A stretch of 64,000 nucleotides of DNA from Saccharomycopsis phalli. Its lineage: Eukaryota; Ascomycota; Saccharomycetes; Ascoideales; Saccharomycopsidaceae. Position 1 is the stretch's first letter. Every line of letters starts with the position of its first letter. The position numbers were made by a program, and so were the translations under genes. Location: the NCBI GenBank assembly GCA_020342235.1, contig CP073212.1, forward strand, positions 2,046,001-2,110,000. Direction: 5' to 3'. This document shows positions 24,381 through 59,772 of the stretch, in pieces. The notes under the pieces were generated by a model that saw nothing but the letters and a program-made list of their open reading frames with translations, ran no database searches and was not told where the DNA came from.

Positions 24381-24392
24381 GGTTGCTAATAC
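24381..24392 (-). repeat. copia-B LTR piece left of inserted copia-A
   Basis: GGTTGCTAATAC matches the inside of the copia-B LTR at 23202-23558 (GATTGCTAATAC there). It continues at 29985 on the other side of the inserted element, with AATAC duplicated. Confidence 0.8.
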
Positions 24393-24703: not shown

Positions 24704-24714
24704 CCCTCCCATAA

Positions 24715-27700: not shown

Positions 27701-29708
27701 GTTGCAATTCATAGCCAATCATGACACAAGGAGAGGCTTTAGCATCGAGCTTTCCTTGACGGAGGGCCTTAGGAATAATAGCATAAGCAACACATCCAAA
27801 TTCTCGGAGAAATTTGTAGTTGAAAGAGCGACCATACCATCGTTTGTATGGGACATCAAAATCAATAGAGCGTGATGGCGTACAATTAGCCAAAAAAACA
27901 GCAGTATTGATTGCTTCAGGCCAAAGTTGAGCTGGAACATTGGTATGAAGCATAAGAGCGCGGGCTTTATCTTGAAGTGTACGGTTCATTCGTTCGGCAA
28001 CGCCATTTTGATACGAATGATGGGGAACCGTGGTTTCGTGAGAGATGCCACGCTTGGTGAGGAAGTTAGTCAATTCCTCACTCACAAACTCACCTCCATT
28101 ATCTGTACGGAGAGTACCAACGCAGTAAGTCAATCCTTTACTGCGGAACATTGTTTCAGAGGTATTAATAAAATTAATGATACCTTGAGTGCATCCAGAT
28201 TTCTTATTGAGGCAAACAACAGTGGTCCATTTTGTATAGCCGTCAATAATAGTCAAGAAATACCGAGATGCATCGTAGGATCCGTAGTTAAATGGCCCAC
28301 AAAGATCCGCATGGACTAACTCAAGTGGCTGAGAAGGATTGGTGGTCCGTTCTTTAGGAGTAGAGTCAACAGTTTTACCAGTAATACATCCGGTACAACT
28401 CAGTAAACTCTGACCAGCCTTCCAGAGTGGATGGATCTTAACAAGCGAGGCCATAACAGAAGCGCTAGGGTGGCCAAGTCTTCTATGCCAGCGATCAATA
28501 TCACGGCCAGAGGACACAGCCTTGTAAGCAATCTGCTTCGGAATCACAGTAGAAGGTTCACATGAAACAGTGTAAAGGTTTGAAAGTGGATCTCGATGAG
28601 CAAACATTTTCTTGGTGGAGCGGATAGTGGCACCTTGATGATTGAAGAGAAACTCTAACTTATGATTAGAAGCTTTTCCAACCGAGATAAGGTTAGCAAT
28701 ACCGTTAGGAGTGTAACCAACATCATGTAGAATAAAAGGTCCAGCTGAAGTAGAAATCCGAACTGTACCTTTCCCAACAATTGCAAGGTTTCCAGCAACA
28801 CCCAGAATAGAGCCATTCTCTGGAATCATGTCTTGAAAGAAACGAATGTCAGAAAAGAAATGTCCACTGGCACCAGTATCAAGAAATGTTGGTATCAGTA
28901 ACAGATGTCCAAGGAAGGAATAAGCCAACATACCTTGAGGAGACTCCTCATCATATGGTTGTTGCTTATCCTTCTTTTTACCTTTGCGACGAGGTTTGGA
29001 CGTCTTCTTAGACAGAGAATCGTGTCCCAAAAGTGCAAGACTGTTCAGACGAACATACTCATGCGATCCAGTTATCTCATGCAAGACCTGATACAGAAGA
29101 GTATTAGTAGTAATCCCCTTGTGTTCAAGCTCTTTAATGACGCTTGAGATAACCGGATATGGCACACCAAGTTGCATCATGTTATCCAAAGTCCATAATG
29201 CAATGATTGCCTCCTTAGTCAATTGCTGCCTAACCAACAAATTTTTGCGTTGAAGCATTGCCCTGATGTCAACAAACTCAGTGGGCCTAGTAGCCTCTTC
29301 CAGAATCCCAGCGCTAGTGAGAGCCACTGGGAGTGGAAGAGTACCATACTTCTCTTGAAGAAACAAAAATTGATTTCTAGCAGTCAGACGTGAGTGCGTG
29401 GAGCGAATAATTCCGCGAATCTCTTGGCTAATACTTGCCTTGAGAACAATACCAAACACGCTATCCAATTGTTCAATAAAGAAAGCAGAAGAAATGTCCG
29501 AGATATCGTCCAGTTCGATGCTCAGAGTTCCATTTTCGGCGTATTGAAGTAAGCCGACCCCGAAGCCAAAAAGAAAGTCCTCGAGTTCCTTCATCCAAAC
29601 ATGATAAGTCTCTGGACCAGTCAATGTTAATTCAGAGGGGAACTGCAGGACGCTTGCAGGATGCATCATAACCTGTTGTAATTTGGAAAGTCTTTCTTTA
29701 GCTGACAT
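24715..29708 (-). pseudogene. copia-A gag-pol, nearly whole
   Basis: Coding sequence from MSAKERLSKLQQ to the terminal MLSGMRKF collinear with the 1661-codon gag-pol at 32001-36986 and with all domains: gag, basic segment, protease DTGAS, integrase, linker, YVDD reverse transcriptase, RNase H. About one break. Allele marks include KKKDKQQPYDEESPQ in the basic segment and a proline stretch interrupted by Leu and Ser. Confidence 0.92.
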
Positions 29709-29984
29709 CTTTGATAAACTGTTTGTATTAACTTATTTATCTTATAGGTAAACTACTTACTTATTGTGGGCACATTGCCTCTTATTTATAGTCCTCTTAT
29801 AAGCTACGGCGTGTCGTAATGCCGCTTAACTAATGCCATTTAGCTACGGCGTATTGTAATGCCGTTTAGCTAATGCTGTTTAGCTAATGCCGTTTAACCA
29901 ATGCCGATAGCTAATGCCGTTTAGCTAATGCCGTTTAACCAATGCCGATAGCTAATGCCGTCTCGGATTTTAATCATCACAACA
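29674..29984 (-). repeat. 5' LTR (311 bp)
   Basis: Matches the 3' LTR at 24393 as far as can be seen. It carries TATAAATA and the gag ATG at 29708. TCATAACC at 29666-29673 is the primer site. Confidence 0.93.
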
Positions 29985-29989
29985 AATAC

Positions 29990-30123
29990 TATGACCTCAT
30001 ACTCTTAATATACCATTAACAGTATGATATCATAGTACTGAAAGATTGCGATCTCTTAGTACAAACATATTTATCATGCATGATGTATTTCAACATGCAT
30101 TAGCTCCTTCAACACTTTCAACA
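29990..30123 (-). repeat. copia-B LTR piece right of inserted copia-A
   Basis: This is the rest of the copia-B LTR interrupted at 24392: it has the same TATGACCTCATACTC block, the CATGCATGATGTAT block and the CTTTCAACA end as 23202-23558, with more substitutions. It is a fragment of an older insertion next to or in the copia-C LTR. Confidence 0.85.
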
Positions 30124-30729
30124 TGGAGTAGAGTGGTTTTTTCGTATTGATACAAATATCCCAGTATTCATAAATTATCGTGATTTGGTTGCAACCAGAT
30201 GGAGCAGTATTACCCTACCTATAATGCCTTATAAGACGGATTTACTGCCTCCAAAATATTTAGTTCAAAATAAATATAGTATACGTTTGTAAGATAGCTC
30301 GGTGTTGTAATTTGGAAAGTCTTTCTTTAGCTGACATCTTTGATAAACTGTTTGTATTAACTTATTTATCTTATAGGTAAACTACTTACTTATTGTGGGC
30401 ACATTGCCTCTTATTTATAGTCCTCTTATAAGCTACGGCGTGTCGTAATGCCGCTTAACTAATGCCATTTAGCTACGGCGTATTGTAATGCCGTTTAGCT
30501 AATGCCGTTTAGCTAATGCCATTTAGCTACGGCCTATTGTAATGCCATTTAGCTAATGCCATTTAGCTAATGCCGTTTAGCTAATGCCGTCTCGGATTTT
30601 AATCATCACAACACCCGGCACTATCAATAATACCTCGTATCTTACTGAGCTCACTACTACTACTTATTATTTATTTATTACTATTAGTGCAAGGTCCCCA
30701 TCAGAGAAGAGACAACACTAAGTACGTCA
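30124..30729 (+). repeat. copia-C LTR interrupted by a solo LTR A
   Basis: From about 30260 it is collinear with the copia-C LTR at 786-1117: TTCAAAATAAATATAGTATA, then, after the inserted LTR, CCCGGCACTATC, the GAGCTCACTACTACTAC block and the end CTAAGTACGTCA at 30729. The part before 30260 does not match, so it is a different U3 or another sequence. Copia-C gag-protease lies downstream in the same orientation. Confidence 0.7.
30303..30613 (-). mobile_element. solo LTR of copia-A in copia-C LTR
   Basis: A 311-bp LTR with normal ends. The flanks CTCGG (30298-30302) and CCCGG (30614-30618) are a 5-bp duplication with one substitution; the uninterrupted LTR at 786-1117 has CCCGG there. Confidence 0.92.
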
Positions 30730-30851
30730 GTCGACGCTTTCACTTACTATTATTTCATAGGTAATGTACTGCTTCGATGTGCGTAGATCATCAACAACCC
30801 ATTTCTCCATTTGTGGATTCATTTTGCGACGACATCTTAATTATAGCATTC
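30730..30851. other. 122-bp stretch after copia-C LTR
   Basis: This sequence would be the copia-C leader if the LTR is its 5' LTR. I see no convincing primer site. It is cut by the next LTR at 30852. Confidence 0.4.
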
Positions 30852-31089
30852 TGTTGTGATGATTAATATCCGAGGCTGCATAAACGAGTCTACCTAAACG
30901 AGTTTCACTTAAACGAGGTTACTTAAACGAGTTTCACTTAGACGCAGTATCCGCGGTAGCTAATCAGAGGACTATAAATAAGAGGCAATGTGCCCACAAT
31001 AAGCAAGTAGTTTACCAATAAGATAAATAAGTTAATACAAACAGTTTATCAACGATGTCAGCTAAAGAAAGACTTTCCAAATCACAACA
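30852..31089 (+). repeat. copia-A LTR, A''/A' mixed variant (238 bp)
   Basis: The LTR runs from TGTTGTGATGATTAATATCC to CCAAATCACAACA, with a short CGAGTTTCACTTAAA-type U3 array and a TATAAATA box. The flanks CATTC and TGTGC do not match. Its coding start MSAKERLSKSQH opens directly into copia-C gag. Confidence 0.88.
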
Positions 31090-31741
31090 TGTGCAAGTCC
31101 GAGCTGGAAAACTGATGCAACTTGATCAAATCTACCAGGAATTGCAATACGAGAGAAAATTTGATCTTGAAAGAGAATTTGAAAGGTATGTGGAAATTTT
31201 CGAAGAAGCGAGAAAGAAACGAGAGACAGCCGGGAACTTCCTTTTAGCGCGGGATATAGCAATATTATACCAGCGTGATTGTGATACAGTATATCAGGCT
31301 CTCAACAACACTCCCGCTGATGAATACATAACACTATTGGACGCAGTACGAAGATCACACAACAACCGAAAAATTGCGGGAAAAGAAATTCTGGATATCA
31401 TCATGGAAGGAGGTTGCGTGGCCAAAGCTGATATCATAAGTAGGGTCAGAAATAACCCGTCATTTAACTTGTGGAACCCATTACAATTTGGAAAAAGATA
31501 CGACAACAAACCAACGAAGCACGAGGTATACGCGAATCATGTCAAAACTGAGGGACAAACAAAACTGGATCCGAATAATATAGTACTTGATACAGGTGCA
31601 ACTGCATCGGTGGTAGACAAGAAATTTTTTAATACACAAGATGCGTATGAAAGTAGAGAGACCCAGATGATCACCTTACATCTACCTTTCGGCAAACCAA
31701 ACATCCAAAAACGGGCTGAAATAGGGAATTTTCTGTTGTAA
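31055..31741 (+). CDS. LTR-started fused frame: 12 codons of copia-A on copia-C gag-protease
   Basis: The ATG and first 12 codons (MSAKERLSKSQH) come from the copia-A LTR. From codon 13 the frame is copia-C: a gag-like, charged helical segment (ERKFDLEREFERYVEIFEEA), a short C-terminal gag part, then the retropepsin site VLDTGATASVVD near residue 181. It ends just inside the antisense LTR of the next copia-A. Since the LTR has a TATA box about 70 bp upstream, transcription is possible; nothing shows that it is made. An accident of insertion is the simplest reading. Confidence 0.6.
   Translation: MSAKERLSKSQHVQVRAGKLMQLDQIYQELQYERKFDLEREFERYVEIFEEARKKRETAGNFLLARDIAILYQRDCDTVYQALNNTPADEYITLLDAVRRSHNNRKIAGKEILDIIMEGGCVAKADIISRVRNNPSFNLWNPLQFGKRYDNKPTKHEVYANHVKTEGQTKLDPNNIVLDTGATASVVDKKFFNTQDAYESRETQMITLHLPFGKPNIQKRAEIGNFLL
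31090..31733 (+). pseudogene. copia-C gag and protease fragment
   Basis: The segment between two copia-A LTRs encodes the copia-C gag C-terminal region and the protease with DTGAT. Its right edge TTTTC (31729-31733) is the copia-A target site. The other half of that target site is at 39390-39394 in inverted orientation, next to the copia-C integrase. Incomplete piece. Confidence 0.85.
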
Positions 31742-31989
31742 TTTGGAAAGTCTTTCTTTAGCTGACATCTTTGATAAACTGTTTGTATTAACTTATTTAT
31801 CTTATAGGTAAACTACTTACTTATTGTGGGCACATTGCCTCTTATTTATAGTCCTCTTATAAGCTACGGCGTGTCGTAATGCCGCTTAACTAATGCCATT
31901 TAGCTACGGCGTATTGTAATGCCGTTTAGCTAATGCCGTTTAACCAATGCCGATAGCTAATGCCGTCTCGGATTTTAATCATCACAACA
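31734..31989 (-). repeat. 3' LTR (256 bp)
   Basis: The LTR lies between TGTTGTAATTTGG and TCATCACAACA and has the shortest of the GGCATTAGCTAAAC-type U3 arrays. Same as 36952-37207, 39395-39650 and 44613-44868 by eye. Confidence 0.94.
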
Positions 31990-32000
31990 CCCTCCCATAA

Positions 32001-35000
32001 TTAAAATTTCCTCATACCACTCAGCATCCGAAGTTTTTGAAATTGCTCTCTTGATAATCCCTTGGTAAGCATATCAGCTAGCATCTTGTCAGTAGTTAGG
32101 TGTCGTAGTTCAATGTTGCCATTTTTCACATGATGCCTGATAAAGTGATGCTTGATATCAATATGTTTAGTTCGATCATGTGACACTGGGTTTTTAGCAA
32201 TATTAACGCAGCTCACATTGTCATCATGAACTATCAATTTTGCCAAGGGGATACCAAGTTCTGCAAACACCTGCTGTAACCATAGAGCATCTTTAATACC
32301 GTCAGTTAATGCCATGTATTCGGCTTCTGCTGTCGACAAAGCAATAGTCGACTGTTTTCTAGATCTCCAAGTAATAGCACCACCGCTATACCTAAACATG
32401 AAACCAGTAGTTGACTTTCTTTCCGTCTTATCAGTAGCCCAGTCAGCATCACAATATCCCAAAAGATAATTCCCATGATCCTTTCTGGAATAAACAATTT
32501 TCATATCCTCTGTTGCCTTCAAATATCTAAGAACACGCTTCGCAGCAACCCAATGCTTTTCCTTTGGAGATTGTAAATATCTTGATAACACACCAACAAT
32601 ATAAGCAATATCAAACCGGACCGTATTAACAGCAAAAAGTAATTTACCAACCAAGGATCGATACATTGTGGCATCCCAGTCCTTTGAGTCATCAGTTATA
32701 GTTAGATCCTGATTAGGATCCGCTGGTGTGTAGATAGGATTGCAATCTACCATCTGATACTCCTTTAGCATCAGGTGAACATAATCATGAAGAGAAAGCA
32801 GTATTGAGGCCTTATCTTGACTAATGTTCATTCCAAGAAACTTGCTAGCAACTCCTAGGTTTTTCATCTTAAAGTGCAGCATCAATTGAGCTTTAACCTT
32901 ATCAATTTCAGTCTGATTATTTCCAGCAATGAGAAGATCGTCGACATAAAGTGCGACCATAATAAACAAATTCCCATTTTTCTTAGAATACAAACAATAC
33001 TCCGCAGAGTTTTGCTTAAAACCAATCACATGTAACACTTCATTGATTTTGTCATTCCAAACCATTGGAGCTTGCTTCAAACCATAAATCGACTTATTAA
33101 GCTTAAGAACATGATCTTCTTTTCCTTTGACCACAAAACCTTCAGGTTGAATCATGTAAAGGTCTTCCCTTAAATCACCATTGAGAAAAGCCGTTTTCAC
33201 ATCCATCTGATGAATAGTAAGTCTATATCTTGCAGCAATGGACAACATGATTCGAATAGAAGCATACCTAATGACAGGCGCAAAAGTTTCCACATAATCA
33301 AGCCCTTTAATCTGAGTAAAACCTCTAGCCACAAGTCGTGCCTTGTGTTGACCATCACTCTTAATTGTAAAAAACCAACGGCAAGTGATAGGTCGACGAC
33401 CTTGCTTAGGTGGAACTAACAGAAAAGTCTGATTCTCATAGTGGGCTTCCATTTCCTTTTGAATAGCGTCTTTCCATAAGTAAGCATCATCAGAAGTAAC
33501 AGCTTGATCAAATGTCATAGGTACATTCTCAAGAGAATGTTTAGCAGCCATAAAACAAGTAGCAGGATAATTCACACCATTCGTATTCATTTCGGATTCA
33601 TCTGTATCATCTGAGAGTGGCGTCTTAACGGATGTCAGGACACCATCATTAGAAGAACCATTTGTGACAATATCAGAGACACGAGGCTTCTTATCCCTCC
33701 CTGAAGACGAACGGTGGGTAGTAGGATCATGTTCATCAGAACTAAGCGGACCAGGAAAAAGGGGCTTAGGTTGGGAGCCTTTGTGACGGATAAGACGCTT
33801 TTGCGGCAAAGCAGAAGGTGGAGGCGGAGGCGGAGGAGGAGGACCAGCTGAAGTAGATACATCTTCCAGATATCTGAGGTCAGAATCCGGGATTTTAGTA
33901 CGTGAAATCTTCAGCTTTCCGTAGTACTTATAGATGATCTCATTTTGGGGTGTCCTTGGAAGATTATCAAAAGTAGTCGGAGGTATATCACCACAAAACG
34001 GGTTATAGTTGGGATCATAGCGCTTAACCCTTGGATATGGGATAGGCCGCTTGTCTGACGGAGACCGATCATACTTGAAGAGATTGTGAGATGAACTGGA
34101 GTTCTTATAATCAATGGGATTGGTATAAGGAACTTCTTGTGCTTGAGGAGTAGCAGGACGAGACAGTGATGTTTGTTGGGCAACATGATTGTCCAGCGAC
34201 AGTGAAGCATCAGACTCCGCAGAAGTAGATTGTGATACATATTTCACAACCTGAAGTTGGGGTGATCCCGAAGTACTACCTGCAACCAGGTCAGTAGTTC
34301 CAGGGATATATTCCAACCGTCTGGGGTCGAGTATCTCTGAGTCACTGATCTCATCCGCATGAGACTCAGGCTCATCTGGTGTGTGCAGAAATCCAGGGTA
34401 CGTGATGGCTTCACGACTTGGTTGAGGATCATCAAGGACAAGATGATTCTTATTAGAACCATTAGGATTACTCACATCAATCAGATCAATAGTAGAGGTC
34501 AGGTCAATTTCAGCCTCTGAAGCGTCAGCGATGATTAGTTCATTTGACTTGGATGAACCAGAAACGACTAATTCATTTCCAATTTCGCGAGCAGCAGTGC
34601 GAATTAAGGCAGTATTATGATCCCTTAAGTAACCAAGCTCAAATCCAGTATCTTCAGCCAACTCAGACGCATTACCGTATGCATCTGATTTAGATACTGT
34701 ATCATTGTCGTCCACTATCAACGAGGTGTCCAGAGGGTCAAGCTCGGATTCAACTATCAATTCATCTCTAGTCATAGAAATAGCTGGCTGAGAATTCATA
34801 GGTAGAGAATGAATCCCTCCAATCTTTGGATTGCCAACCCCGGAAATTTGAGGAGGATTGATTGTGCTAGTCAGCGCCAGAGACACAGTTGGATAAAAGA
34901 ATTTATCCTCCTCAAAAATTGCTTGAGCAGCGCAAATAACCTTATTTGTTCTGGGGTCATAGAGTCGATATGCTTTTCGTTGCAATTCATAGCCAATCAT

Positions 35001-36986
35001 GACACAAGGAGAGGCTTTAGCATCGAGCTTTCCTTGACGGAGGGCCTTAGGAATAATAGCATAAGCAACACATCCAAATTCTCGGAGAAATTTGTAGTTG
35101 AAAGAGCGACCATACCATCGTTTGTATGGGACATCAAAATCAATAGAGCGTGATGGCGTACAATTAGCCAAAAAAACAGCAGTATTGATTGCTTCAGGCC
35201 AAAGTTGAGCTGGAACATTGGTATGAAGCATAAGAGCGCGGGCTTTATCTTGAAGTGTACGGTTCATTCGTTCGGCAACGCCATTTTGATACGAATGATG
35301 GGGAACCGTGGTTTCGTGAGAGATGCCACGCTTGGTGAGGAAGTTAGTCAATTCTTCACTCACAAACTCACCTCCATTATCTGTACGGAGAGTACCAACG
35401 CAGTAAGTCAATCCTTTACTGCGGAACATTGTTTCAGAGGTATTAATAAAATTAATGATACCTTGAGTGCATCCAGATTTCTTATTGAGGCAAACAACAG
35501 TGGTCCATTTTGTATAGCCGTCAACAATAGTCAAGAAATACCGAGATGCATCGTAGGATCCGTAGTTAAATGGCCCACAAAGATCCACATGGACTAACTC
35601 AAGTGGCTGAGAAGGATTGGTGGTCCGTTCTTTAGGAGCAGAGTCAACAGTTTTACCAGTAATACATCCGGTACAACTCAGTAAACTCTGACCAGCCTTC
35701 CAGAGTGGATGGATCTTGAAAAGCGAGGCCATAACAGAAGCGCTAGGGTGGCCAAGTCTTCTATGCCAGCGATCAATATCACGGCCAGAGGACACAGCCT
35801 TGTAAGCAATCTGCTTCGGAATCACAGTAGAAGGTTCACATGAAACAGTGTAAAGGTTTGAAAGTGGATCTCGATGAGCAAACATTTTCTTGGTGGAGCG
35901 GATAGTGGCACCTTGATGATTGAAGAGAAACTCTAACTTATGATTAGAAGCTTTTCCAACCGAGATAAGGTTAGCAATACCGTTAGGAGTGTAACCAACA
36001 TCATGTAGAATAAAAGGTCCAGCTGGAGTAGAAATCCGAACTGTACCTTTCCCAACAATTGCAAGGTTTCCAGCAACACCCAGAATAGAGCCATTCTCTG
36101 GAATCATGTCTTGAAAGAAACGAATGTCAGAGAAGAAATGTCCACTGGCACCAGTATCAAGAAATGTTGGTATCAGTAACAGATGTCCAAGGAAGGAATA
36201 AGCCAACATACCTTGAGGATACTCTTCATCATATGGTTGTTGCTTTTCCTTCTTTTTACCTTTGCGACGAGGTTTGGACGTCTTCTTAGACAGAGAATCG
36301 TGACCCAAAAGTGCAAGACTGTTCAGACGAACATACTCATGCGATCCAGTTATCTCATGCAAGACCTGATACAGAAGAGTATTAGTAGTAATCCCCTTGT
36401 GTTCAAGCTCTTTAATGACGCTTGAGATAACCGGATATGGCACACCAAGTTGCATCATGTTATCCAAAGTCCATAATGCAATGATTGCCTCCTTAGTCAA
36501 TTGCTGTCTAACCAACAAATTTTTGCGTTGAAGCATTGCCCTGATGTCAACAAACTCAGTGGGCCTAGTAGCTTCTTCCAGAATCCCAGCGCTAGTGAGA
36601 GCCACTGGGAGTGGAAGAGTACCATACTTCTCTTGAAGAAACAAAAATTGATTTCTAGCAGTCAGACGTGAGTGCGTGGAGCGAATAATTCCGCGAATCT
36701 CTTGGCTAATGCTTGCCTTGAGAATAATACCAAACACGCTATCCAATTGTTCAATAAAGAAAGCAGAAGAAATGTCCGAGATATCGTCCAGTTCGATGCT
36801 CAGAGTTCCATTTTCGGCGTATTGAAGTAAGCCGACCCCGAAGCCAAAAAGAAAGTCCTCGAGTTCCTTCATCCAGACATGATAAGTCTCTGGACCAGTC
36901 AATGTTAATTCAGAGGGGAACTGCAGGACGCTTGCAGGATGCATCATAACCTGTTGTAATTTGGAAAGTCTTTCTTTAGCTGACAT
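32001..36986 (-). CDS. copia-A Gag-Pol polyprotein (1661 codons, looks whole)
   Basis: A single frame encodes the polyprotein of a Ty1/copia element. Gag spans about residues 1-260; it has no CCHC knuckle but a Lys/Arg-rich segment at 234-249. The protease site DTGAS is at 277-281. Integrase has the zinc finger H408, H413, C438, C441 and the triad D468, D536, E572 (35 residues between the last two). An acidic Ser/Asp-rich linker follows, with a proline run near 1050, then the reverse transcriptase with YVDD at 1347-1350 and RNase H with D1513 and the ADMLTKGL end. The first 12 codons lie in the 5' LTR; that ATG is the first after the TATA box. It would be autonomous if expressed. Confidence 0.95.
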   Translation of the reverse strand: MSAKERLSKLQQVMMHPASVLQFPSELTLTGPETYHVWMKELEDFLFGFGVGLLQYAENGTLSIELDDISDISSAFFIEQLDSVFGIILKASISQEIRGIIRSTHSRLTARNQFLFLQEKYGTLPLPVALTSAGILEEATRPTEFVDIRAMLQRKNLLVRQQLTKEAIIALWTLDNMMQLGVPYPVISSVIKELEHKGITTNTLLYQVLHEITGSHEYVRLNSLALLGHDSLSKKTSKPRRKGKKKEKQQPYDEEYPQGMLAYSFLGHLLLIPTFLDTGASGHFFSDIRFFQDMIPENGSILGVAGNLAIVGKGTVRISTPAGPFILHDVGYTPNGIANLISVGKASNHKLEFLFNHQGATIRSTKKMFAHRDPLSNLYTVSCEPSTVIPKQIAYKAVSSGRDIDRWHRRLGHPSASVMASLFKIHPLWKAGQSLLSCTGCITGKTVDSAPKERTTNPSQPLELVHVDLCGPFNYGSYDASRYFLTIVDGYTKWTTVVCLNKKSGCTQGIINFINTSETMFRSKGLTYCVGTLRTDNGGEFVSEELTNFLTKRGISHETTVPHHSYQNGVAERMNRTLQDKARALMLHTNVPAQLWPEAINTAVFLANCTPSRSIDFDVPYKRWYGRSFNYKFLREFGCVAYAIIPKALRQGKLDAKASPCVMIGYELQRKAYRLYDPRTNKVICAAQAIFEEDKFFYPTVSLALTSTINPPQISGVGNPKIGGIHSLPMNSQPAISMTRDELIVESELDPLDTSLIVDDNDTVSKSDAYGNASELAEDTGFELGYLRDHNTALIRTAAREIGNELVVSGSSKSNELIIADASEAEIDLTSTIDLIDVSNPNGSNKNHLVLDDPQPSREAITYPGFLHTPDEPESHADEISDSEILDPRRLEYIPGTTDLVAGSTSGSPQLQVVKYVSQSTSAESDASLSLDNHVAQQTSLSRPATPQAQEVPYTNPIDYKNSSSSHNLFKYDRSPSDKRPIPYPRVKRYDPNYNPFCGDIPPTTFDNLPRTPQNEIIYKYYGKLKISRTKIPDSDLRYLEDVSTSAGPPPPPPPPPSALPQKRLIRHKGSQPKPLFPGPLSSDEHDPTTHRSSSGRDKKPRVSDIVTNGSSNDGVLTSVKTPLSDDTDESEMNTNGVNYPATCFMAAKHSLENVPMTFDQAVTSDDAYLWKDAIQKEMEAHYENQTFLLVPPKQGRRPITCRWFFTIKSDGQHKARLVARGFTQIKGLDYVETFAPVIRYASIRIMLSIAARYRLTIHQMDVKTAFLNGDLREDLYMIQPEGFVVKGKEDHVLKLNKSIYGLKQAPMVWNDKINEVLHVIGFKQNSAEYCLYSKKNGNLFIMVALYVDDLLIAGNNQTEIDKVKAQLMLHFKMKNLGVASKFLGMNISQDKASILLSLHDYVHLMLKEYQMVDCNPIYTPADPNQDLTITDDSKDWDATMYRSLVGKLLFAVNTVRFDIAYIVGVLSRYLQSPKEKHWVAAKRVLRYLKATEDMKIVYSRKDHGNYLLGYCDADWATDKTERKSTTGFMFRYSGGAITWRSRKQSTIALSTAEAEYMALTDGIKDALWLQQVFAELGIPLAKLIVHDDNVSCVNIAKNPVSHDRTKHIDIKHHFIRHHVKNGNIELRHLTTDKMLADMLTKGLSREQFQKLRMLSGMRKF

Positions 36987-37207
36987 CTTTGATAAACTGT
37001 TTGTATTAACTTATTTATCTTATAGGTAAACTACTTACTTATTGTGGGCACATTGCCTCTTATTTATAGTCCTCTTATAAGCTACGGCGTGTCGTAATGC
37101 CGCTTAACTAATGCCATTTAGCTACGGCGTATTGTAATGCCGTTTAGCTAATGCCGTTTAACCAATGCCGATAGCTAATGCCGTCTCGGATTTTAATCAT
37201 CACAACA
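36952..37207 (-). repeat. 5' LTR (256 bp)
   Basis: Contains the promoter and the gag ATG at 36986. On its right, at 37208, copia-C sequence begins with GCCTT. Confidence 0.94.
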
Positions 37208-39394
37208 GCCTTGTCACCTCGTGCGACCAATCTGGCCTTATACTCTTCGCCTTTTATGTTAGTTGGGTCCTGTGAGTACACGAACATCGCGTCAATGATT
37301 GGATGAGATGGTCTCTTCACTACCTCTGCTACTTGTAATGACTTAAATTTTTCCAATTCCTGTAGTTTTGCGTCTTGCCAGTCGTAGTACTTTGATCTTC
37401 TTCCTCTTACCACAATATTGTTAATTCTCGCATGGTTCTTCTTCCTCAAAATTGGGTGTCTGTAGTTCTTCTTTACCTTGAGAAGTCGTGCAATTCGTTT
37501 CTCATGGTCTGCCTTCATGATCTTCCTGTAAATCTCTTCTGTAGACGTGTCATCCGACGATGCCCTTTCTCTCTTTTGATTTCTTGGCGTTTCAATCTTT
37601 TCCTTCTCAGTCGCCTTCGCTTTTTCTTGCTCAATCGCTTGGTCGTCCGTGAATTCTTCGTCCGCCCATGTTTCTTCGTCTTCCATGCATGTGTCGTATT
37701 CGGATTCGCGTCCACTGTCAATCTCGTCTTTCTCCAGTGACAAGTTAGTTTGTTCGTCGCTGGTTGGTTCTTCGTCGTAATTGATCACGTTTCGGTTTCT
37801 CTTGCCCTCTATAACATTTTCTTGTGCCTTTCCGTATTCCAAATTGTCGATATCCAACTGCTTCAACATTTGGATTTCCTCCATATCCAGTTCAGTTGTT
37901 ATTCTCGTTTCCAGTTCCGTTTCCAGTATCATCTCCTCAGTCGTGTTACCAGTTACCCCTCTGCTCTGTGCCGCCGTTTCCTTAATGGTTCCTTCAGATT
38001 CATTTTCGTGTTGTGTTCTCATTAATTCATCTTCCGTTTCTCATTGTTCAGTATAAATTTTTTCAAAAGCGTTGCGAAAGTACTCAATGTTGGTCTCTGA
38101 TTGTTGATCTCGGTGTTCATGGCAGTACTGTTTTATGTTGTTGTAAGATGACAATGCTGATATATGGCTTGTGATAAATTCTTTTCCGCTGCTGGTTAAT
38201 ACTCTGAAACAGTTTCCTCCAATGTCCATTCCTGTGATGAAACCAGTAGTTGTGTTGCTGGTATACTTGTGCTGTGGGATACCTAGGATTTTTTGCTGTT
38301 GTGGGTTGTTAACTCTGACGATAACATCAATTCCGAATGGTAGCATGTGGTGTGTCGCATCGTAAGGGTACATCATTTCTGCTGGTGACTTCCAATTGTT
38401 TCGACGAACTGGTGTTTGGTTTACCAAGTCAATCGCGTACCGAATAATATCTTTCAAAAAAATTGAGATCTTCATCGCGTCAAAATTGGCCGTGATCTTG
38501 TAGATTTGTTTTAAAATTTTCCTGTTGTAGTTCTCTGCAAGGCCGTTCTTGTATGGTTGATAAGCTGGAGTAGCATGCTTTGTGATTCCCAATTCCTTTA
38601 ATTCCGCCTCTGATGGAAATTCTGGTGCATTGTCACATCCGAGGCTCCTGATATGATTTGTTGGGAATTCCTTTCTCACACCCGTCAAAGTCGCTTTATA
38701 CGCTGCTTTTACAGATTTCCCAGTCGTAATAGTCGGCCAACAATAGCCCGAGTATTCGTCAACCAATGATGTCATATAGACTTCTTCCCCGTTTCGATCT
38801 CTAAAAGGTCCTAATGTGTCAGTATGCAATCTATATAACGGTGTTGGTGCCGGAATTCGCTTGACCTGGTGTGACACCTCCGTAGCGCCGCACATTGTAC
38901 AAATTGGACACCCCATAACTTGTTTTTTGTCCTCCTCGTTATACTTTACCTCAACTTTCATAGTTTTCAATCTTCGGATTAAACTCTCATAGCTCATATG
39001 GTTAGTAATTAGGTGATAATCAAAAAGTGTCTTGCCTCTAAAATGTGGAATTGTCTTGTAGTTCCTGATCACATTAAATAAATTCATTTCAATCACCCGT
39101 TCTCCTGCTTCCTCAATAGTTGTTGCCACTTGTCCCTTGTTTTTGCTCTGCATTATAGTAGGGGATGCTGAGAAAACCGATGGAAGTAGATATCTTAAAC
39201 CGTCCTGTCTTTTAACTCCGATCTTGATTATGTCGCCCCTGTCCTTATGGTATAAGAAAGTGTTGTCGTCGTCAAAAATTACCACGTTTCCGTTCTGAGT
39301 TATATCGTTAATCGCGAGTAAGTTCTGGTGGATGTTGTCAAAACCGAGTGTCCCAATCTGAATCTGATATCTGGTGTTTGGAAAGAGTCGAAAA
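37208..39394 (-). pseudogene. copia-C integrase and start of reverse transcriptase
   Basis: The minus-strand piece begins within the protease-integrase spacer and runs through the HHCC finger (DYHLITNH...CPICTMC), the catalytic blocks HTDTLGPF, GCDNAPEF and NGLAENYNRK, and a highly charged linker, and it stops in the early reverse transcriptase (EEYKARLVARGDKA). The style HTDTLGPF is closer to Ty1/Ty4 than to copia-A. It is bounded on both sides by copia-A LTRs. The outer edge GAAAA at 39390-39394 pairs with TTTTC at 31729-31733. Incomplete piece with about one break. Confidence 0.85.
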
Positions 39395-39650
39395 TGTTGT
39401 GATGATTAAAATCCGAGACGGCATTAGCTATCGGCATTGGTTAAACGGCATTAGCTAAACGGCATTACAATACGCCGTAGCTAAATGGCATTAGTTAAGC
39501 GGCATTACGACACGCCGTAGCTTATAAGAGGACTATAAATAAGAGGCAATGTGCCCACAATAAGTAAGTAGTTTACCTATAAGATAAATAAGTTAATACA
39601 AACAGTTTATCAAAGATGTCAGCTAAAGAAAGACTTTCCAAATTACAACA
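39395..39650 (+). repeat. 5' LTR (256 bp)
   Basis: The LTR starts TGTTGTGATGATTAAAATCC and ends CCAAATTACAACA. The last 35 nt (39616-39650) are coding. Confidence 0.95.
39534..39541 (+). promoter_or_regulatory. TATA box of copia-A LTR
   Basis: TATAAATA lies 74 bp before the gag ATG at 39616 and is conserved in every copia-A LTR variant, including those whose U3 repeats differ. It marks the likely U3/R border region. Confidence 0.75.
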
Positions 39651-42600
39651 GGTTATGATGCATCCTGCAAGCGTCCTGCAGTTCCCCTCTGAATTAACAT
39701 TGACTGGTCCAGAGACTTATCATGTCTGGATGAAGGAACTCGAGGACTTTCTTTTTGGCTTCGGGGTCGGCTTACTTCAATACGCCGAAAATGGAACTCT
39801 GAGCATCGAACTGGACGATATCTCGGACATTTCTTCTGCTTTCTTTATTGAACAATTGGATAGCGTGTTTGGTATTATTCTCAAGGCAAGCATTAGCCAA
39901 GAGATTCGCGGAATTATTCGCTCCACGCACTCACGTCTGACTGCTAGAAATCAATTTTTGTTTCTTCAAGAGAAGTATGGTACTCTTCCACTCCCAGTGG
40001 CTCTCACTAGCGCTGGGATTCTGGAAGAAGCTACTAGGCCCACTGAGTTTGTTGACATCAGGGCAATGCTTCAACGCAAAAATTTGTTGGTTAGACAGCA
40101 ATTGACTAAGGAGGCAATCATTGCATTATGGACTTTGGATAACATGATGCAACTTGGTGTGCCATATCCGGTTATCTCAAGCGTCATTAAAGAGCTTGAA
40201 CACAAGGGGATTACTACTAATACTCTTCTGTATCAGGTCTTGCATGAGATAACTGGATCGCATGAGTATGTTCGTCTGAACAGTCTTGCACTTTTGGGTC
40301 ACGATTCTCTGTCTAAGAAGACGTCCAAACCTCGTCGCAAAGGTAAAAAGAAGGAAAAGCAACAACCATATGATGAAGAGTATCCTCAAGGTATGTTGGC
40401 TTATTCCTTCCTTGGACATCTGTTACTGATACCAACATTTCTTGATACTGGTGCCAGTGGACATTTCTTCTCTGACATTCGTTTCTTTCAAGACATGATT
40501 CCAGAGAATGGCTCTATTCTGGGTGTTGCTGGAAACCTTGCAATTGTTGGGAAAGGTACAGTTCGGATTTCTACTCCAGCTGGACCTTTTATTCTACATG
40601 ATGTTGGTTACACTCCTAACGGTATTGCTAACCTTATCTCGGTTGGAAAAGCTTCTAATCATAAGTTAGAGTTTCTCTTCAATCATCAAGGTGCCACTAT
40701 CCGCTCCACCAAGAAAATGTTTGCTCATCGAGATCCACTTTCAAACCTTTACACTGTTTCATGTGAACCTTCTACTGTGATTCCGAAGCAGATTGCTTAC
40801 AAGGCTGTGTCCTCTGGCCGTGATATTGATCGCTGGCATAGAAGACTTGGCCACCCTAGCGCTTCTGTTATGGCCTCGCTTTTCAAGATCCATCCACTCT
40901 GGAAGGCTGGTCAGAGTTTACTGAGTTGTACCGGATGTATTACTGGTAAAACTGTTGACTCTGCTCCTAAAGAACGGACCACCAATCCTTCTCAGCCACT
41001 TGAGTTAGTCCATGTGGATCTTTGTGGGCCATTTAACTACGGATCCTACGATGCATCTCGGTATTTCTTGACTATTGTTGACGGCTATACAAAATGGACC
41101 ACTGTTGTTTGCCTCAATAAGAAATCTGGATGCACTCAAGGTATCATTAATTTTATTAATACCTCTGAAACAATGTTCCGCAGTAAAGGATTGACTTACT
41201 GCGTTGGTACTCTCCGTACAGATAATGGAGGTGAGTTTGTGAGTGAAGAATTGACTAACTTCCTCACCAAGCGTGGCATCTCTCACGAAACCACGGTTCC
41301 CCATCATTCGTATCAAAATGGCGTTGCCGAACGAATGAACCGTACACTTCAAGATAAAGCCCGCGCTCTTATGCTTCATACCAATGTTCCAGCTCAACTT
41401 TGGCCTGAAGCAATCAATACTGCTGTTTTTTTGGCTAATTGTACGCCATCACGCTCTATTGATTTTGATGTCCCATACAAACGATGGTATGGTCGCTCTT
41501 TCAACTACAAATTTCTCCGAGAATTTGGATGTGTTGCTTATGCTATTATTCCTAAGGCCCTCCGTCAAGGAAAGCTCGATGCTAAAGCCTCTCCTTGTGT
41601 CATGATTGGCTATGAATTGCAACGAAAAGCATATCGACTCTATGACCCCAGAACAAATAAGGTTATTTGCGCTGCTCAAGCAATTTTTGAGGAGGATAAA
41701 TTCTTTTATCCAACTGTGTCTCTGGCGCTGACTAGCACAATCAATCCTCCTCAAATTTCCGGGGTTGGCAATCCAAAGATTGGAGGGATTCATTCTCTAC
41801 CTATGAATTCTCAGCCAGCTATTTCTATGACTAGAGATGAATTGATAGTTGAATCCGAGCTTGACCCTCTGGACACCTCGTTGATAGTGGACGACAATGA
41901 TACAGTATCTAAATCAGATGCATACGGTAATGCGTCTGAGTTGGCTGAAGATACTGGATTTGAGCTTGGTTACTTAAGGGATCATAATACTGCCTTAATT
42001 CGCACTGCTGCTCGCGAAATTGGAAATGAATTAGTCGTTTCTGGTTCATCCAAGTCAAATGAACTAATCATCGCTGACGCTTCAGAGGCTGAAATTGACC
42101 TGACCTCTACTATTGATCTGATTGATGTGAGTAATCCTAATGGTTCTAATAAGAATCATCTTGTCCTTGATGATCCTCAACCAAGTCGTGAAGCCATCAC
42201 GTACCCTGGATTTCTGCACACACCAGATGAGCCTGAGTCTCATGCGGATGAGATCAGTGACTCAGAGATACTCGACCCCAGACGGTTGGAATATATCCCT
42301 GGAACTACTGACCTGGTTGCAGGTAGTACTTCGGGATCACCCCAACTTCAGGTTGTGAAATATGTATCACAATCTACTTCTGCGGAGTCTGATGCTTCAC
42401 TGTCGCTGGACAATCATGTTGCCCAACAAACATCACTGTCTCGTCCTGCTACTCCTCAAGCACAAGAAGTTCCTTATACCAATCCCATTGATTATAAGAA
42501 CTCCAGTTCATCTCACAATCTCTTCAAGTATGATCGGTCTCCGTCAGACAAGCGGCCTATCCCATATCCAAGGGTTAAGCGCTATGATCCCAACTATAAC

Positions 42601-44601
42601 CCGTTTTGTGGTGATATACCTCCGACTACTTTTGATAATCTTCCAAGGACACCCCAAAATGAGATCATCTATAAGTACTACGGAAAGCTGAAGATTTCAC
42701 GTACTAAAATCCCGGATTCTGACCTCAGATATCTGGAAGATGTATCTACTTCAGCTGGTCCTCCTCCTCCGCCTCCGCCTCCACCTTCTGCTTTGCCGCA
42801 AAAGCGTCTTATCCGTCACAAAGGCTCCCAACCTAAGCCCCTTTTTCCTGGTCCGCTTAGTTCTGATGAACATGATCCTACTACCCACCGTTCGTCTTCA
42901 GGGAGGGATAAGAAGCCTCGTGTCTCTGATATTGTCACAAATGGTTCTTCTAATGATGGTGTCCTGACATCCGTTAAGACGCCACTCTCAGATGATACAG
43001 ATGAATCCGAAATGAATACGAATGGTGTGAATTATCCTGCTACTTGTTTTATGGCTGCTAAACATTCTCTTGAGAATGTACCTATGACATTTGATCAAGC
43101 TGTTACTTCTGATGATGCTTACTTATGGAAAGACGCTATTCAAAAGGAAATGGAAGCCCACTATGAGAATCAGACTTTTCTGTTAGTTCCACCTAAGCAA
43201 GGTCGTCGACCTATCACTTGCCGTTGGTTTTTTACAATTAAGAGTGATGGTCAACACAAGGCACGACTTGTGGCTAGAGGTTTTACTCAGATTAAAGGGC
43301 TTGATTATGTGGAAACTTTTGCGCCTGTCATTAGGTATGCTTCTATTCGAATCATGTTGTCCATTGCTGCAAGATATAGACTTACTATTCATCAGATGGA
43401 TGTGAAAACGGCTTTTCTCAATGGTGATTTAAGGGAAGACCTTTACATGATTCAACCTGAAGGTTTTGTGGTCAAAGGAAAAGAAGATCATGTTCTTAAG
43501 CTTAATAAGTCGATTTATGGTTTGAAGCAAGCTCCAATGGTTTGGAATGACAAAATCAATGAAGTGTTACATGTGATTGGTTTTAAGCAAAACTCTGCGG
43601 AGTATTGTTTGTATTCTAAGAAAAATGGGAATTTGTTTATTATGGTCGCACTTTATGTCGACGATCTTCTCATTGCTGGAAATAATCAGACTGAAATTGA
43701 TAAGGTTAAAGCTCAATTGATGCTGCACTTTAAGATGAAAAACCTAGGAGTTGCTAGCAAGTTTCTTGGAATGAACATTAGTCAAGATAAGGCCTCAATA
43801 CTGCTTTCTCTTCATGATTATGTTCACCTGATGCTAAAGGAGTATCAGATGGTAGATTGCAATCCTATCTACACACCAGCGGATCCTAATCAGGATCTAA
43901 CTATAACTGATGACTCAAAGGACTGGGATGCCACAATGTATCGATCCTTGGTTGGCAAATTACTTTTTGCTGTTAATACAGTCCGGTTTGATATTGCTTA
44001 TATTGTTGGTGTGTTATCAAGATATTTACAATCTCCAAAGGAAAAGCATTGGGTTGCTGCGAAGCGTGTTCTTAGATATTTGAAGGCAACAGAGGATATG
44101 AAAATTGTTTATTCCAGAAAGGATCATGGGAATTATCTTTTGGGATATTGTGATGCTGACTGGGCTACTGATAAGACGGAAAGAAAGTCAACTACTGGTT
44201 TCATGTTTAGGTATAGCGGTGGTGCTATTACTTGGAGATCTAGAAAACAGTCGACTATTGCTTTGTCGACAGCAGAAGCCGAATACATGGCATTAACTGA
44301 CGGTATTAAAGATGCTCTATGGTTACAGCAGGTGTTTGCAGAACTTGGTATCCCCTTGGCAAAATTGATAGTTCATGATGACAATGTGAGCTGCGTTAAT
44401 ATTGCTAAAAACCCAGTGTCACATGATCGAACTAAACATATTGATATCAAGCATCACTTTATCAGGCATCATGTGAAAAATGGCAACATTGAACTACGAC
44501 ACCTAACTACTGACAAGATGCTAGCTGATATGCTTACCAAGGGATTATCAAGAGAGCAATTTCAAAAACTTCGGATGCTGAGTGGTATGAGGAAATTTTA
44601 A
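39616..44601 (+). CDS. copia-A Gag-Pol polyprotein (1661 codons, looks whole)
   Basis: Same protein as at 32001-36986, including the allele marks SNELIIADASEAEIDLTS, CRWFFTIK and KNLGVASK. The frame runs without interruption from the LTR-borne ATG to a stop 11 bp before the 3' LTR. All catalytic residues listed for that copy are present. CTG codons occur at positions where copia-B has TCT or ACT (39937, 43180, 40921), so several residues written as Leu are probably Ser. Confidence 0.95.
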   Translation: MSAKERLSKLQQVMMHPASVLQFPSELTLTGPETYHVWMKELEDFLFGFGVGLLQYAENGTLSIELDDISDISSAFFIEQLDSVFGIILKASISQEIRGIIRSTHSRLTARNQFLFLQEKYGTLPLPVALTSAGILEEATRPTEFVDIRAMLQRKNLLVRQQLTKEAIIALWTLDNMMQLGVPYPVISSVIKELEHKGITTNTLLYQVLHEITGSHEYVRLNSLALLGHDSLSKKTSKPRRKGKKKEKQQPYDEEYPQGMLAYSFLGHLLLIPTFLDTGASGHFFSDIRFFQDMIPENGSILGVAGNLAIVGKGTVRISTPAGPFILHDVGYTPNGIANLISVGKASNHKLEFLFNHQGATIRSTKKMFAHRDPLSNLYTVSCEPSTVIPKQIAYKAVSSGRDIDRWHRRLGHPSASVMASLFKIHPLWKAGQSLLSCTGCITGKTVDSAPKERTTNPSQPLELVHVDLCGPFNYGSYDASRYFLTIVDGYTKWTTVVCLNKKSGCTQGIINFINTSETMFRSKGLTYCVGTLRTDNGGEFVSEELTNFLTKRGISHETTVPHHSYQNGVAERMNRTLQDKARALMLHTNVPAQLWPEAINTAVFLANCTPSRSIDFDVPYKRWYGRSFNYKFLREFGCVAYAIIPKALRQGKLDAKASPCVMIGYELQRKAYRLYDPRTNKVICAAQAIFEEDKFFYPTVSLALTSTINPPQISGVGNPKIGGIHSLPMNSQPAISMTRDELIVESELDPLDTSLIVDDNDTVSKSDAYGNASELAEDTGFELGYLRDHNTALIRTAAREIGNELVVSGSSKSNELIIADASEAEIDLTSTIDLIDVSNPNGSNKNHLVLDDPQPSREAITYPGFLHTPDEPESHADEISDSEILDPRRLEYIPGTTDLVAGSTSGSPQLQVVKYVSQSTSAESDASLSLDNHVAQQTSLSRPATPQAQEVPYTNPIDYKNSSSSHNLFKYDRSPSDKRPIPYPRVKRYDPNYNPFCGDIPPTTFDNLPRTPQNEIIYKYYGKLKISRTKIPDSDLRYLEDVSTSAGPPPPPPPPPSALPQKRLIRHKGSQPKPLFPGPLSSDEHDPTTHRSSSGRDKKPRVSDIVTNGSSNDGVLTSVKTPLSDDTDESEMNTNGVNYPATCFMAAKHSLENVPMTFDQAVTSDDAYLWKDAIQKEMEAHYENQTFLLVPPKQGRRPITCRWFFTIKSDGQHKARLVARGFTQIKGLDYVETFAPVIRYASIRIMLSIAARYRLTIHQMDVKTAFLNGDLREDLYMIQPEGFVVKGKEDHVLKLNKSIYGLKQAPMVWNDKINEVLHVIGFKQNSAEYCLYSKKNGNLFIMVALYVDDLLIAGNNQTEIDKVKAQLMLHFKMKNLGVASKFLGMNISQDKASILLSLHDYVHLMLKEYQMVDCNPIYTPADPNQDLTITDDSKDWDATMYRSLVGKLLFAVNTVRFDIAYIVGVLSRYLQSPKEKHWVAAKRVLRYLKATEDMKIVYSRKDHGNYLLGYCDADWATDKTERKSTTGFMFRYSGGAITWRSRKQSTIALSTAEAEYMALTDGIKDALWLQQVFAELGIPLAKLIVHDDNVSCVNIAKNPVSHDRTKHIDIKHHFIRHHVKNGNIELRHLTTDKMLADMLTKGLSREQFQKLRMLSGMRKF
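39651..39658 (+). other. copia-A primer binding site (internal initiator tRNA-Met)
   Basis: GGTTATGA follows the LTR without a gap and is complementary to the anticodon loop and 3' stem of initiator tRNA-Met. It is identical in copia-B and is translated as part of Gln-Val-Met (codons 12-14). Confidence 0.75.
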
Positions 44602-44605
44602 TTAT

Positions 44606-44612
44606 GGGAGGG
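44606..44612 (+). other. polypurine tract of copia-A
   Basis: GGGAGGG directly precedes the 3' LTR and is the expected plus-strand primer. It is GGGAGAG in the copies ending at 20004 and 49830. Confidence 0.8.
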
Positions 44613-44868
44613 TGTTGTGATGATTAAAATCCGAGACGGCATTAGCTATCGGCATTGGTTAAACGGCATTAGCTAAACGGCATTACAATACGCCGTAGCT
44701 AAATGGCATTAGTTAAGCGGCATTACGACACGCCGTAGCTTATAAGAGGACTATAAATAAGAGGCAATGTGCCCACAATAAGTAAGTAGTTTACCTATAA
44801 GATAAATAAGTTAATACAAACAGTTTATCAAAGATGTCAGCTAAAGAAAGACTTTCCAAATTACAACA
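44613..44868 (+). repeat. LTR shared by two tandem copia-A elements
   Basis: A single 256-bp LTR serves as the 3' LTR of the element on its left and the 5' LTR of the one on its right. There is no flanking host sequence on either side. Confidence 0.95.
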
Positions 44869-47800
44869 GGTTATGATGCATCCTGCAAGCGTCCTGCAGT
44901 TCCCCTCTGAATTAACATTGACTGGTCCAGAGACTTATCATGTCTGGATGAAGGAACTCGAGGACTTTCTTTTTGGCTTCGGGGTCGGCTTACTTCAATA
45001 CGCCGAAAATGGAACTCTGAGCATCGAACTGGACGATATCTCGGACATTTCTTCTGCTTTCTTTATTGAACAATTGGATAGCGTGTTTGGTATTATTCTC
45101 AAGGCAAGCATTAGCCAAGAGATTCGCGGAATTATTCGCTCCACGCACTCACGTCTGACTGCTAGAAATCAATTTTTGTTTCTTCAAGAGAAGTATGGTA
45201 CTCTTCCACTCCCAGTGGCTCTCACTAGCGCTGGGATTCTGGAAGAAGCTACTAGGCCCACTGAGTTTGTTGACATCAGGGCAATGCTTCAACGCAAAAA
45301 TTTGTTGGTTAGACAGCAATTGACTAAGGAGGCAATCATTGCATTATGGACTTTGGATAACATGATGCAACTTGGTGTGCCATATCCGGTTATCTCAAGC
45401 GTCATTAAAGAGCTTGAACACAAGGGGATTACTACTAATACTCTTCTGTATCAGGTCTTGCATGAGATAACTGGATCGCATGAGTATGTTCGTCTGAACA
45501 GTCTTGCACTTTTGGGTCACGATTCTCTGTCTAAGAAGACGTCCAAACCTCGTCGCAAAGGTAAAAAGAAGGAAAAGCAACAACCATATGATGAAGAGTA
45601 TCCTCAAGGTATGTTGGCTTATTCCTTCCTTGGACATCTGTTACTGATACCAACATTTCTTGATACTGGTGCCAGTGGACATTTCTTCTCTGACATTCGT
45701 TTCTTTCAAGACATGATTCCAGAGAATGGCTCTATTCTGGGTGTTGCTGGAAACCTTGCAATTGTTGGGAAAGGTACAGTTCGGATTTCTACTCCAGCTG
45801 GACCTTTTATTCTACATGATGTTGGTTACACTCCTAACGGTATTGCTAACCTTATCTCGGTTGGAAAAGCTTCTAATCATAAGTTAGAGTTTCTCTTCAA
45901 TCATCAAGGTGCCACTATCCGCTCCACCAAGAAAATGTTTGCTCATCGAGATCCACTTTCAAACCTTTACACTGTTTCATGTGAACCTTCTACTGTGATT
46001 CCGAAGCAGATTGCTTACAAGGCTGTGTCCTCTGGCCGTGATATTGATCGCTGGCATAGAAGACTTGGCCACCCTAGCGCTTCTGTTATGGCCTCGCTTT
46101 TCAAGATCCATCCACTCTGGAAGGCTGGTCAGAGTTTACTGAGTTGTACCGGATGTATTACTGGTAAAACTGTTGACTCTGCTCCTAAAGAACGGACCAC
46201 CAATCCTTCTCAGCCACTTGAGTTAGTCCATGTGGATCTTTGTGGGCCATTTAACTACGGATCCTACGATGCATCTCGGTATTTCTTGACTATTGTTGAC
46301 GGCTATACAAAATGGACCACTGTTGTTTGCCTCAATAAGAAATCTGGATGCACTCAAGGTATCATTAATTTTATTAATACCTCTGAAACAATGTTCCGCA
46401 GTAAAGGATTGACTTACTGCGTTGGTACTCTCCGTACAGATAATGGAGGTGAGTTTGTGAGTGAAGAATTGACTAACTTCCTCACCAAGCGTGGCATCTC
46501 TCACGAAACCACGGTTCCCCATCATTCGTATCAAAATGGCGTTGCCGAACGAATGAACCGTACACTTCAAGATAAAGCCCGCGCTCTTATGCTTCATACC
46601 AATGTTCCAGCTCAACTTTGGCCTGAAGCAATCAATACTGCTGTTTTTTTGGCTAATTGTACGCCATCACGCTCTATTGATTTTGATGTCCCATACAAAC
46701 GATGGTATGGTCGCTCTTTCAACTACAAATTTCTCCGAGAATTTGGATGTGTTGCTTATGCTATTATTCCTAAGGCCCTCCGTCAAGGAAAGCTCGATGC
46801 TAAAGCCTCTCCTTGTGTCATGATTGGCTATGAATTGCAACGAAAAGCATATCGACTCTATGACCCCAGAACAAATAAGGTTATTTGCGCTGCTCAAGCA
46901 ATTTTTGAGGAGGATAAATTTTTTTATCCAACTGTGTCTCTGGCGCTGACTAGCACAATCAATCCTCCTCAAATTTCTGGGGTTGGCAATCCAAAGATTG
47001 GAGGGATTCATTCTCTACCTATGAATTCTCAGCCAGCTATTTCTATGACTAGAGATGAATTGACAGTTGAATCCGAGCTTGACCCTCTGGACACCTCGTT
47101 GATAGTGGACGATAATGATACAGTATCTAAATCAGATGCATACGGTAATGCGTCTGAGTTGGCTGAAGATACTGGATCTGAGCTTGGTTACTTAAGGGAT
47201 CATAATACTGCCTTAATTCGCACTGCTGCTCGCGAAATTGGAAATGAATTAGTTGTTTCTGGTTCATCCAAGTCAAATGAACTAACTATCGCTGATGCTT
47301 CAGATGCTGAAATTAACCTGTCCTCTACTATTGATCTGATTGATGTGAGTAATCCTAATGGTTCTAATGAGAATCATCTTGTCCTTGATGATCCTCAACC
47401 AAGTCGTGAAGCCATCACGTACCCTGGATTTCTGCACACGCCAGAAGAGCCTGAGTCTCATGCGGATGAGATCAGTGACTCAGAGATATCTGACCCCAGA
47501 CGGTTGGAATATATCCCTGGAACTACTGACCTGGTTGCAGGTAGTACTTCGGGATCACCCCAACTTCAGGTTGTGAAATATGTATCACAATCTACTTCTG
47601 CGGAGTCTGATGCTTCACTGTCGCTGGACAATCATGTTGCCCAACAAACATCACTGTCTCGTCCTGCTACTCCTCAAGCACAAGAAGTTCCTTATACCAA
47701 TCCCATTGATTATAAGAACTCCAGTTCATCTCACAATCTCTTCAAGTATGATCGGTCTCCGTCAGACAAGCGGCCTATCCCATATCCAAGGGTTAAGCGC

Positions 47801-49819: not shown

Positions 49820-49830
49820 TTATGGGAGAG

Positions 49831-59767: not shown

Positions 59768-59772
59768 AATAC

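Follow-up and report, generated by a model that had tools for sequence, protein, structure and literature searches.

Both orientations of a copia-C segment between inverted Ty5-like retrotransposons in a putative centromere cluster of Saccharomycopsis phalli

The analyzed window comprises 64,000 nucleotides of Saccharomycopsis phalli (contig CP073212.1, positions 2,046,001 to 2,110,000 of the forward strand). The contig carrying the window is called C1 below, and an extended window coordinate x corresponds to C1:2046000+x. The window contains two inverted copies of a Ty5-like retrotransposon, copia-A, which interrupt another element, copia-C, and enclose a copia-C segment (S1) that is turned around. 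The two copies go back to two insertions with different target sites, the ancestral order of the segment is preserved in other copia-C copies, the segment occurs in both orientations in the assembly, and the element following the pair (A3) is a hybrid. From these patterns, which were read from one assembly of one isolate, we infer that recombination rather than assembly was the cause, in which order the events occurred, and that the cluster has a centromeric role.

Two insertion sites and the order of the enclosed segment

An earlier note on this DNA had described an inverted pair of copia-A elements of equal length, flanked by TTTTC and GAAAA, and this was borne out. A1 on the minus strand and A2 on the plus strand both have a length of 5,474 bp, with TTTTC at 31729-31733 left of A1 and GAAAA at 39390-39394 left of A2. 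The note had also described the copies as apparently identical; A1 and the reverse complement of A2 differ at 2 positions. No inverted repeat in the window is longer than the one formed by this pair (arms of 5,475 nt, spacer of 2,187 nt). The flank to the right of A1 is GCCTT (37208-37212). GCCTT is the reverse complement of AAGGC, and GAAAA is that of TTTTC. As had been suggested, the gag-protease part of copia-C runs up to A1 and its integrase lies between the two elements on the opposite strand. The piece left of A1 has a gag-protease frame with a DTGA protease motif that was read by eye; a Pfam search of this piece yielded nothing above the cut-off. On the minus strand of S1 the integrase core domain rve was detected with 27.8 and 26.6 bits, which is under the curated value of 32.6.

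Uninterrupted versions of both insertion sites are present elsewhere in the genome. The TTTTC site, at which the left flank is joined to the start of the segment, was found with 0 mismatches in five other copia-C copies, on C1 (at 783 kb), C2, C4, C5 and C6; the same query gave 2 additional matches with 3 mismatches elsewhere. The AAGGC site, at which the end of the segment is joined to the reverse transcriptase (RT) part, was found at four places (C1 at 780 kb, C4, C5 and C6), each with 0 mismatches. Genome searches with both patterns read backwards gave 0 matches. As the empty TTTTC and AAGGC sites are separate, copia-A inserted twice, with two 5-bp target duplications, and the single insertion proposed earlier had to be given up. 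In all four clusters that contain both sites (C1 at 780 kb, C4, C5 and C6), the two share a strand, and TTTTC precedes AAGGC at a distance of 2.3-2.7 kb. Therefore, S1 is the turned form.

The unflipped form is also present in the same cluster. This copy, S2, is located 35 kb from S1, at C1:2118209-2120393, and has a length of 2,185 bp. S2 and the reverse complement of S1 agree in 2,183 of 2,189 alignment columns, and the remaining 6 columns are insertions or deletions (indels; one 2-base and four 1-base events), with 0 substitutions. Left of S2 lies an array of two copia-A elements, A4A5, and the TTTTC duplication has been kept on both of its sides (C1:2107512-2107516 and C1:2118209-2118213). 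AAGGC has also been retained at C1:2138989, where the RT part of copia-C follows directly. A comparison of the two arrangements revealed a swap of flanks, i.e., TTTTC-A1-GCCTT ... GAAAA-A2 in the first copy versus TTTTC-A4A5-TTTTC ... AAGGC-A6A7 in the second. Thus, the unequal flanks TTTTC/GCCTT and GAAAA/(lost), which the earlier note had singled out to be checked for exchange, are swapped halves of the sites TTTTC and AAGGC. That the window lacks the right half of the second site is due to a 29.8-kb direct duplication, whose junction runs through A3. The inversion of 37208-39394 itself was confirmed: the segment is opposite to 4 of 4 genome copies with both sites and to S2, and it ends exactly at the inverted copia-A copies.

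The following history is proposed. The Ty5-like copia-C, residing in a retrotransposon cluster that is probably a centromere, would have been struck twice by the younger Ty5-like copia-A, with one insertion on the minus strand at TTTTC in gag-protease and another on the plus strand at AAGGC at the RT start, and with the 5' ends of the two A copies facing each other over 2.2 kb. Homologous recombination between the 5.5-kb inverted repeats, either a crossover or break-induced copying, would have inverted the 2,187-bp segment in one lineage. Later exchanges among other homologous elements would have produced the 29.8-kb direct duplication, multiplied copia-A via common long terminal repeats (LTRs), and given rise to a further left-flank copy in inverted orientation. 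We have good confidence in this history as a whole, and the flip is likely to represent ordinary recombination between inverted retrotransposon copies, a mechanism that has long been known.

A single complex insertion, by autointegration of copia-A complementary DNA (cDNA) or by an insertion that carried a copy of the segment, would do without a recombinational inversion. Retroelement cDNA can self-integrate, which yields inverted internal segments. In addition, tandem LTR elements with a common LTR may insert as such, with the mechanism left open in the part of the source consulted (PMC11899658). However, the segment derives from copia-C and not from copia-A, and in the other copies the two target sites are found at distinct positions within copia-C, which makes this explanation very improbable.

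The assignment of copia-A is based on its domains. The frame of A2 contains, in this order and all above the cut-off, Retrotran_gag_4 (Ty5 Gag N-terminal), Pol_BBD, gag_pre-integrs, rve, SH3_retrovirus and RVT_2. The element thus has gag, a protease-like domain, integrase and RT in the copia order together with a Ty5-type gag, as is typical for the Ty5 group of Ty1/copia elements. Directly after the copia-A LTR, 8 nt (GGTTATGA) are complementary to GGGCTCATAACCC, which we take to be the anticodon arm of the methionine transfer RNA (tRNA-Met) and which was used as query. It had 5 matches in the genome; 4 of the 5 gave loci, and all 4 were tRNA-Met (cat) of two lengths, with initiator and elongator being indistinguishable. 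Target duplications of 5 bp together with TGTTG...CAACA ends were found around A4A5 (TTTTC) and around the elements 24393-29984 and 54219-59767 (AATAC). They are unmatched at A1 and A6A7, which exchange between elements would explain, and also at a copia-A element on C3. The latter (C3:1713311-1718784) comprises two A LTRs, separated by 5,218 bp, that enclose an RT frame of 1669 codons, and its outer flanks differ (GCTTT left, GTTAT right). It is perhaps another recombination product.

Duplications and hybrid elements around the pair

The features of the window are compiled in Table 1. In extended coordinates the order is flank, TTTTC, A1(-), GCCTT-S1-GAAAA, A2(+), A3(+), flank again, TTTTC, A4A5(-), TTTTC-S2-AAGGC, A6A7(+), GAAAA, inverted flank, a remnant of an A element, AAGGC, and the RT part of copia-C. 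Each of the two units of the 29.8-kb direct duplication contains an inverted pair in this arrangement, and the second pair starts at 61517 and leaves the window.

Table 1. Features of the inverted copia-A pair and its surroundings (window coordinates)
Feature	Position	Strand	Basis
29.8-kb direct duplication: first copy of left flank unit	16682..31733		alignment
copia-C left piece: 3' part of LTR and gag-protease, ending at TTTTC 31729-31733	30952..31733	+	LTR match; DTGA frame by eye; empty site unbroken in 5 other copies
copia-A copy A1, Ty5-like: LTR 31734-31989, internal part, LTR 36952-37207	31734..37207	-	alignment, LTR matches; Pfam of A2 frame
S1: inverted copia-C segment, integrase to RT start, GCCTT left end, GAAAA right end	37208..39394	-	sequence comparison; reads towards RT on minus strand
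copia-A copy A2, inverted partner of A1; right LTR common to A3	39395..44868	+	alignment, LTR matches
A3: hybrid element, equal to A2 up to 46920, equal to older element E (15631-20450) from 46508	44613..50276	+	alignment
Exchange interval behind the 29.8-kb direct duplication, 413 bp	46508..46920	+	alignment
Flank unit, second copy, ending in TTTTC 61512-61516	46508..61516		alignment
Second A(-) array A4A5, common LTR, TTTTC both sides	61517..64000 in window; 61517-72208 extended (C1:2107517-2118208)	-	LTR matches, flanks

The regions 16682-24639 and 46508-54465 are 100% identical over 7,958 bp, and 24561-37211 and 54347-66994 share 99.83% identity. The double match of A3, to A2 on its left and to element E on its right, places the junction of the duplication inside the 413 bp of identity. 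The right LTR of A2 (44613-44868) doubles as an LTR of A3. Therefore, GGTTA at 44869 belongs to the interior of an element rather than to a flank, and a right-hand target duplication of A2 at this position was ruled out. One LTR is held in common within each of the pairs A2A3, A4A5 and A6A7. The LTRs of element E (20045-20347) and of A3 (49871-50173) contain an expanded run of 26/14/40-bp units and are longer than those of A1 and A2.

The elements at 24393 and 54219 are distinguished mostly by one LTR region: of 15 substitutions, 14 fall within the first kb of the second unit as aligned. The left LTR 54219-54488 is of a 270-bp type, 24393-24703 is of a longer type, and the right LTRs are alike. 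This difference between the duplicated units looks like LTR gene conversion. Around S2 there is an inverted duplication with 18.0-kb arms of 99.5% identity. The last element of the inverted flank equals the flank's own element up to 89,314 (few indels, 0 substitutions), has many substitutions thereafter, and has internal A sequence as its right flank; the far junction, too, thus appears to be located within homologous elements. A plain fold-back read artefact was considered for the 18-kb inverted repeat and is unlikely, as the central S2 (2,185 bp) is outside the repeat and the far end switches to another element. Judged by alignment, the junction and LTR patterns would be the expected outcome of homologous recombination among near-identical repeats.

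The flip may also have occurred by gene conversion or template switching along with the 29.8-kb duplication, so that the isomers would stem from two homologues or sister chromatids. This variant is compatible with the proposed history and is regarded as possible, although it is not the version that we favor. Both isomers occupy two units of one direct duplication, and the inverted flank copy past A7 ends by switching into another homologous element, which speaks for this variant. On the other side, the A copies are uninformative in this respect: as A1 equals A4 and A2 equals A5 in sequence, a crossover is indistinguishable from conversion or copying.

The cluster as a putative centromere

The genome has a size of 14.15 Mb in 8 contigs. 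At least 49 LTR matches were obtained, a lower bound with 40 of 132 candidates scored, and 49 of 49 lie inside eight clusters on 7 of the 8 contigs; the clusters comprise about 0.39 Mb together, and their limits were drawn after the matches had been seen. For RVT_2, 67 of 83 matches are inside the eight clusters and 16 are elsewhere. This distribution is in line with the view that the cluster of the window is probably a yeast centromere. Inverted pairs around a core are present, i.e., the 18.0-kb arms around S2 and the 5.5-kb arms around S1. In the C6 cluster, the only other one that was read at length (100 kb, ending 5 kb short of the cluster's end), the longest inverted pairs were 2.7 kb. 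A flanking gene is UTP20, for which the best match with a solved structure was 6ke6, a structure from Saccharomyces cerevisiae. An oomycete copia centromere, which had been considered at first, was rejected in view of this gene and of the genome size of 14.15 Mb. In S. cerevisiae, UTP20 is located close to CEN2. PMC12711049 does not mention UTP20. A CUG-serine code is less likely, because the UTP20 frame has 18 CTG codons that are mostly at hydrophobic, leucine-like places, which was judged by eye and is weak evidence.

Several observations weigh against the proposed history or the centromeric role. S2, A6 and A7 differ from clean copies by indels alone (6 columns, 2 and 17, respectively), with 0 substitutions. 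The indels of S2 are private to it in comparison with 3 of 3 covering copies, and a fourth copy ends short of them. The stretch with S2 and the inverted flank thus looks like a poorly corrected long-read consensus. Furthermore, C1 has two clusters (C1:780000-817000 and C1:2047000-2140000), 1.23 Mb apart, and C8 (1,018,027 bp) is without any cluster, which could reflect a misjoin. The contig-end repeat is GGATGTGC, with the variants GGATGTGG and GGATGTGT further in; C1 has repeats of the GGATGTGC type at both ends, and C8 has such repeats at its start and 18S ribosomal DNA (rDNA) at its end. The distribution of clusters on C1 and C8 could be due to either a misjoin, a lost function or an inactive second centromere on C1, or a different type of centromere on C8.

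The region C1:2118209-2136000 (extended 72209-90000) is indel-only or indel-rich in comparison with its sister copies, whereas nearby copies of these repeats are clean. Beyond the repeat, gene frames are open, UTP20 with its 2,383 codons being one example.

An assembly artefact would mean that the segment was assembled in the wrong orientation or that the cluster was misjoined, owing to arms with complete or almost complete identity over 5.5 to 10.7 kb. The indel pattern at about 74-90 kb of the extended coordinates is in line with this, as is the finding that C1, a contig bounded on either side by telomere-like repeats, has two clusters and C8, with its rDNA end, has none. However, the flipped copy in the window is clean: where S2 has its indels, S1 matches the other chromosomes, and A2 equals A5. 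In addition, A1 is a single 5.5-kb element, and a long read of at least 7 kb would anchor S1 to the left flank, and the two copies of the arrangement differ in array number and other details. The unflipped S2 copy and the inverted flank are less secure than the clean flipped copy, and the ancestral order is supported by the other clusters, independently of S2 and the inverted flank. Taken together, an artefact is decidedly unlikely, and the recombinational flip after two insertions is the preferred explanation.

Implications and comparison with known systems

The 5-bp target sites record several steps in a probable yeast centromere, namely two insertions, a flip, and a duplication, and the flipped segment is a testable marker for the frequency of recombination in centromeric DNA. 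The cluster also offers a candidate route by which retrotransposon clusters could become inverted-repeat centromeres. Head-to-head insertions could provide arms, recombination could flip the core and homogenize the arms, and array growth could extend them to 18 kb, so that a Ty5-cluster centromere would be turning into an inverted-repeat centromere. This is speculative and unlikely, yet if true, two of the regional centromere types that are common in budding yeasts would be connected by a single simple path.

Clusters of Ty5-like elements have been described at centromeres of the budding yeasts Scheffersomyces stipitis (Tps5), Debaryomyces hansenii, Ogataea polymorpha, and Cyberlindnera sargentensis (PMC12711049, PMC8546629 and PMC7263194, each in the part consulted). 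The element clusters on 7 of 8 contigs resemble them, as far as can be told from sequence alone. In contrast, the present cluster has large inverted repeats and a 29.8-kb duplication, and C1 has two clusters and C8 none; the O. polymorpha centromeres are described as being without inverted repeats in the consulted part of PMC12711049. The same part of that source describes inverted-repeat centromeres of Candida tropicalis, C. parapsilosis, Komagataella phaffii, and Barnettozyma, in which a kb-long inverted pair flanks a core. Such a pair is also present here, but its arms are whole retrotransposons and its core is a piece of another one, and the inverted matches in C6 reach only up to 2.7 kb. 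Common LTRs as in A2A3, A4A5, and A6A7 are known from tandem LTR retrotransposons of plants (PMC11899658, consulted part), whereas here they occur in a yeast-type genome within an inverted array.

Among the papers listed in literature searches, judged by title and the start of the abstract, there was no report of an inversion inside a retrotransposon centromere. According to the consulted part of PMC9731477, a segment near CEN14 of Saccharomyces lies between near-identical 4.2-kb inverted repeats and undergoes flip/flop by recombination, with no flip in about 53,800 mitoses and 950 meioses. In both cases both orientations exist and the repeats are the breakpoints, here in the assembly only. 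The CEN14 repeats carry genes and the orientation varies between strains, whereas here the repeats are retrotransposons and both orientations are present in one chromosome of one assembly. What is unusual is the presence of both isomers, together with large inverted repeats, within one putative Ty5-type centromere.
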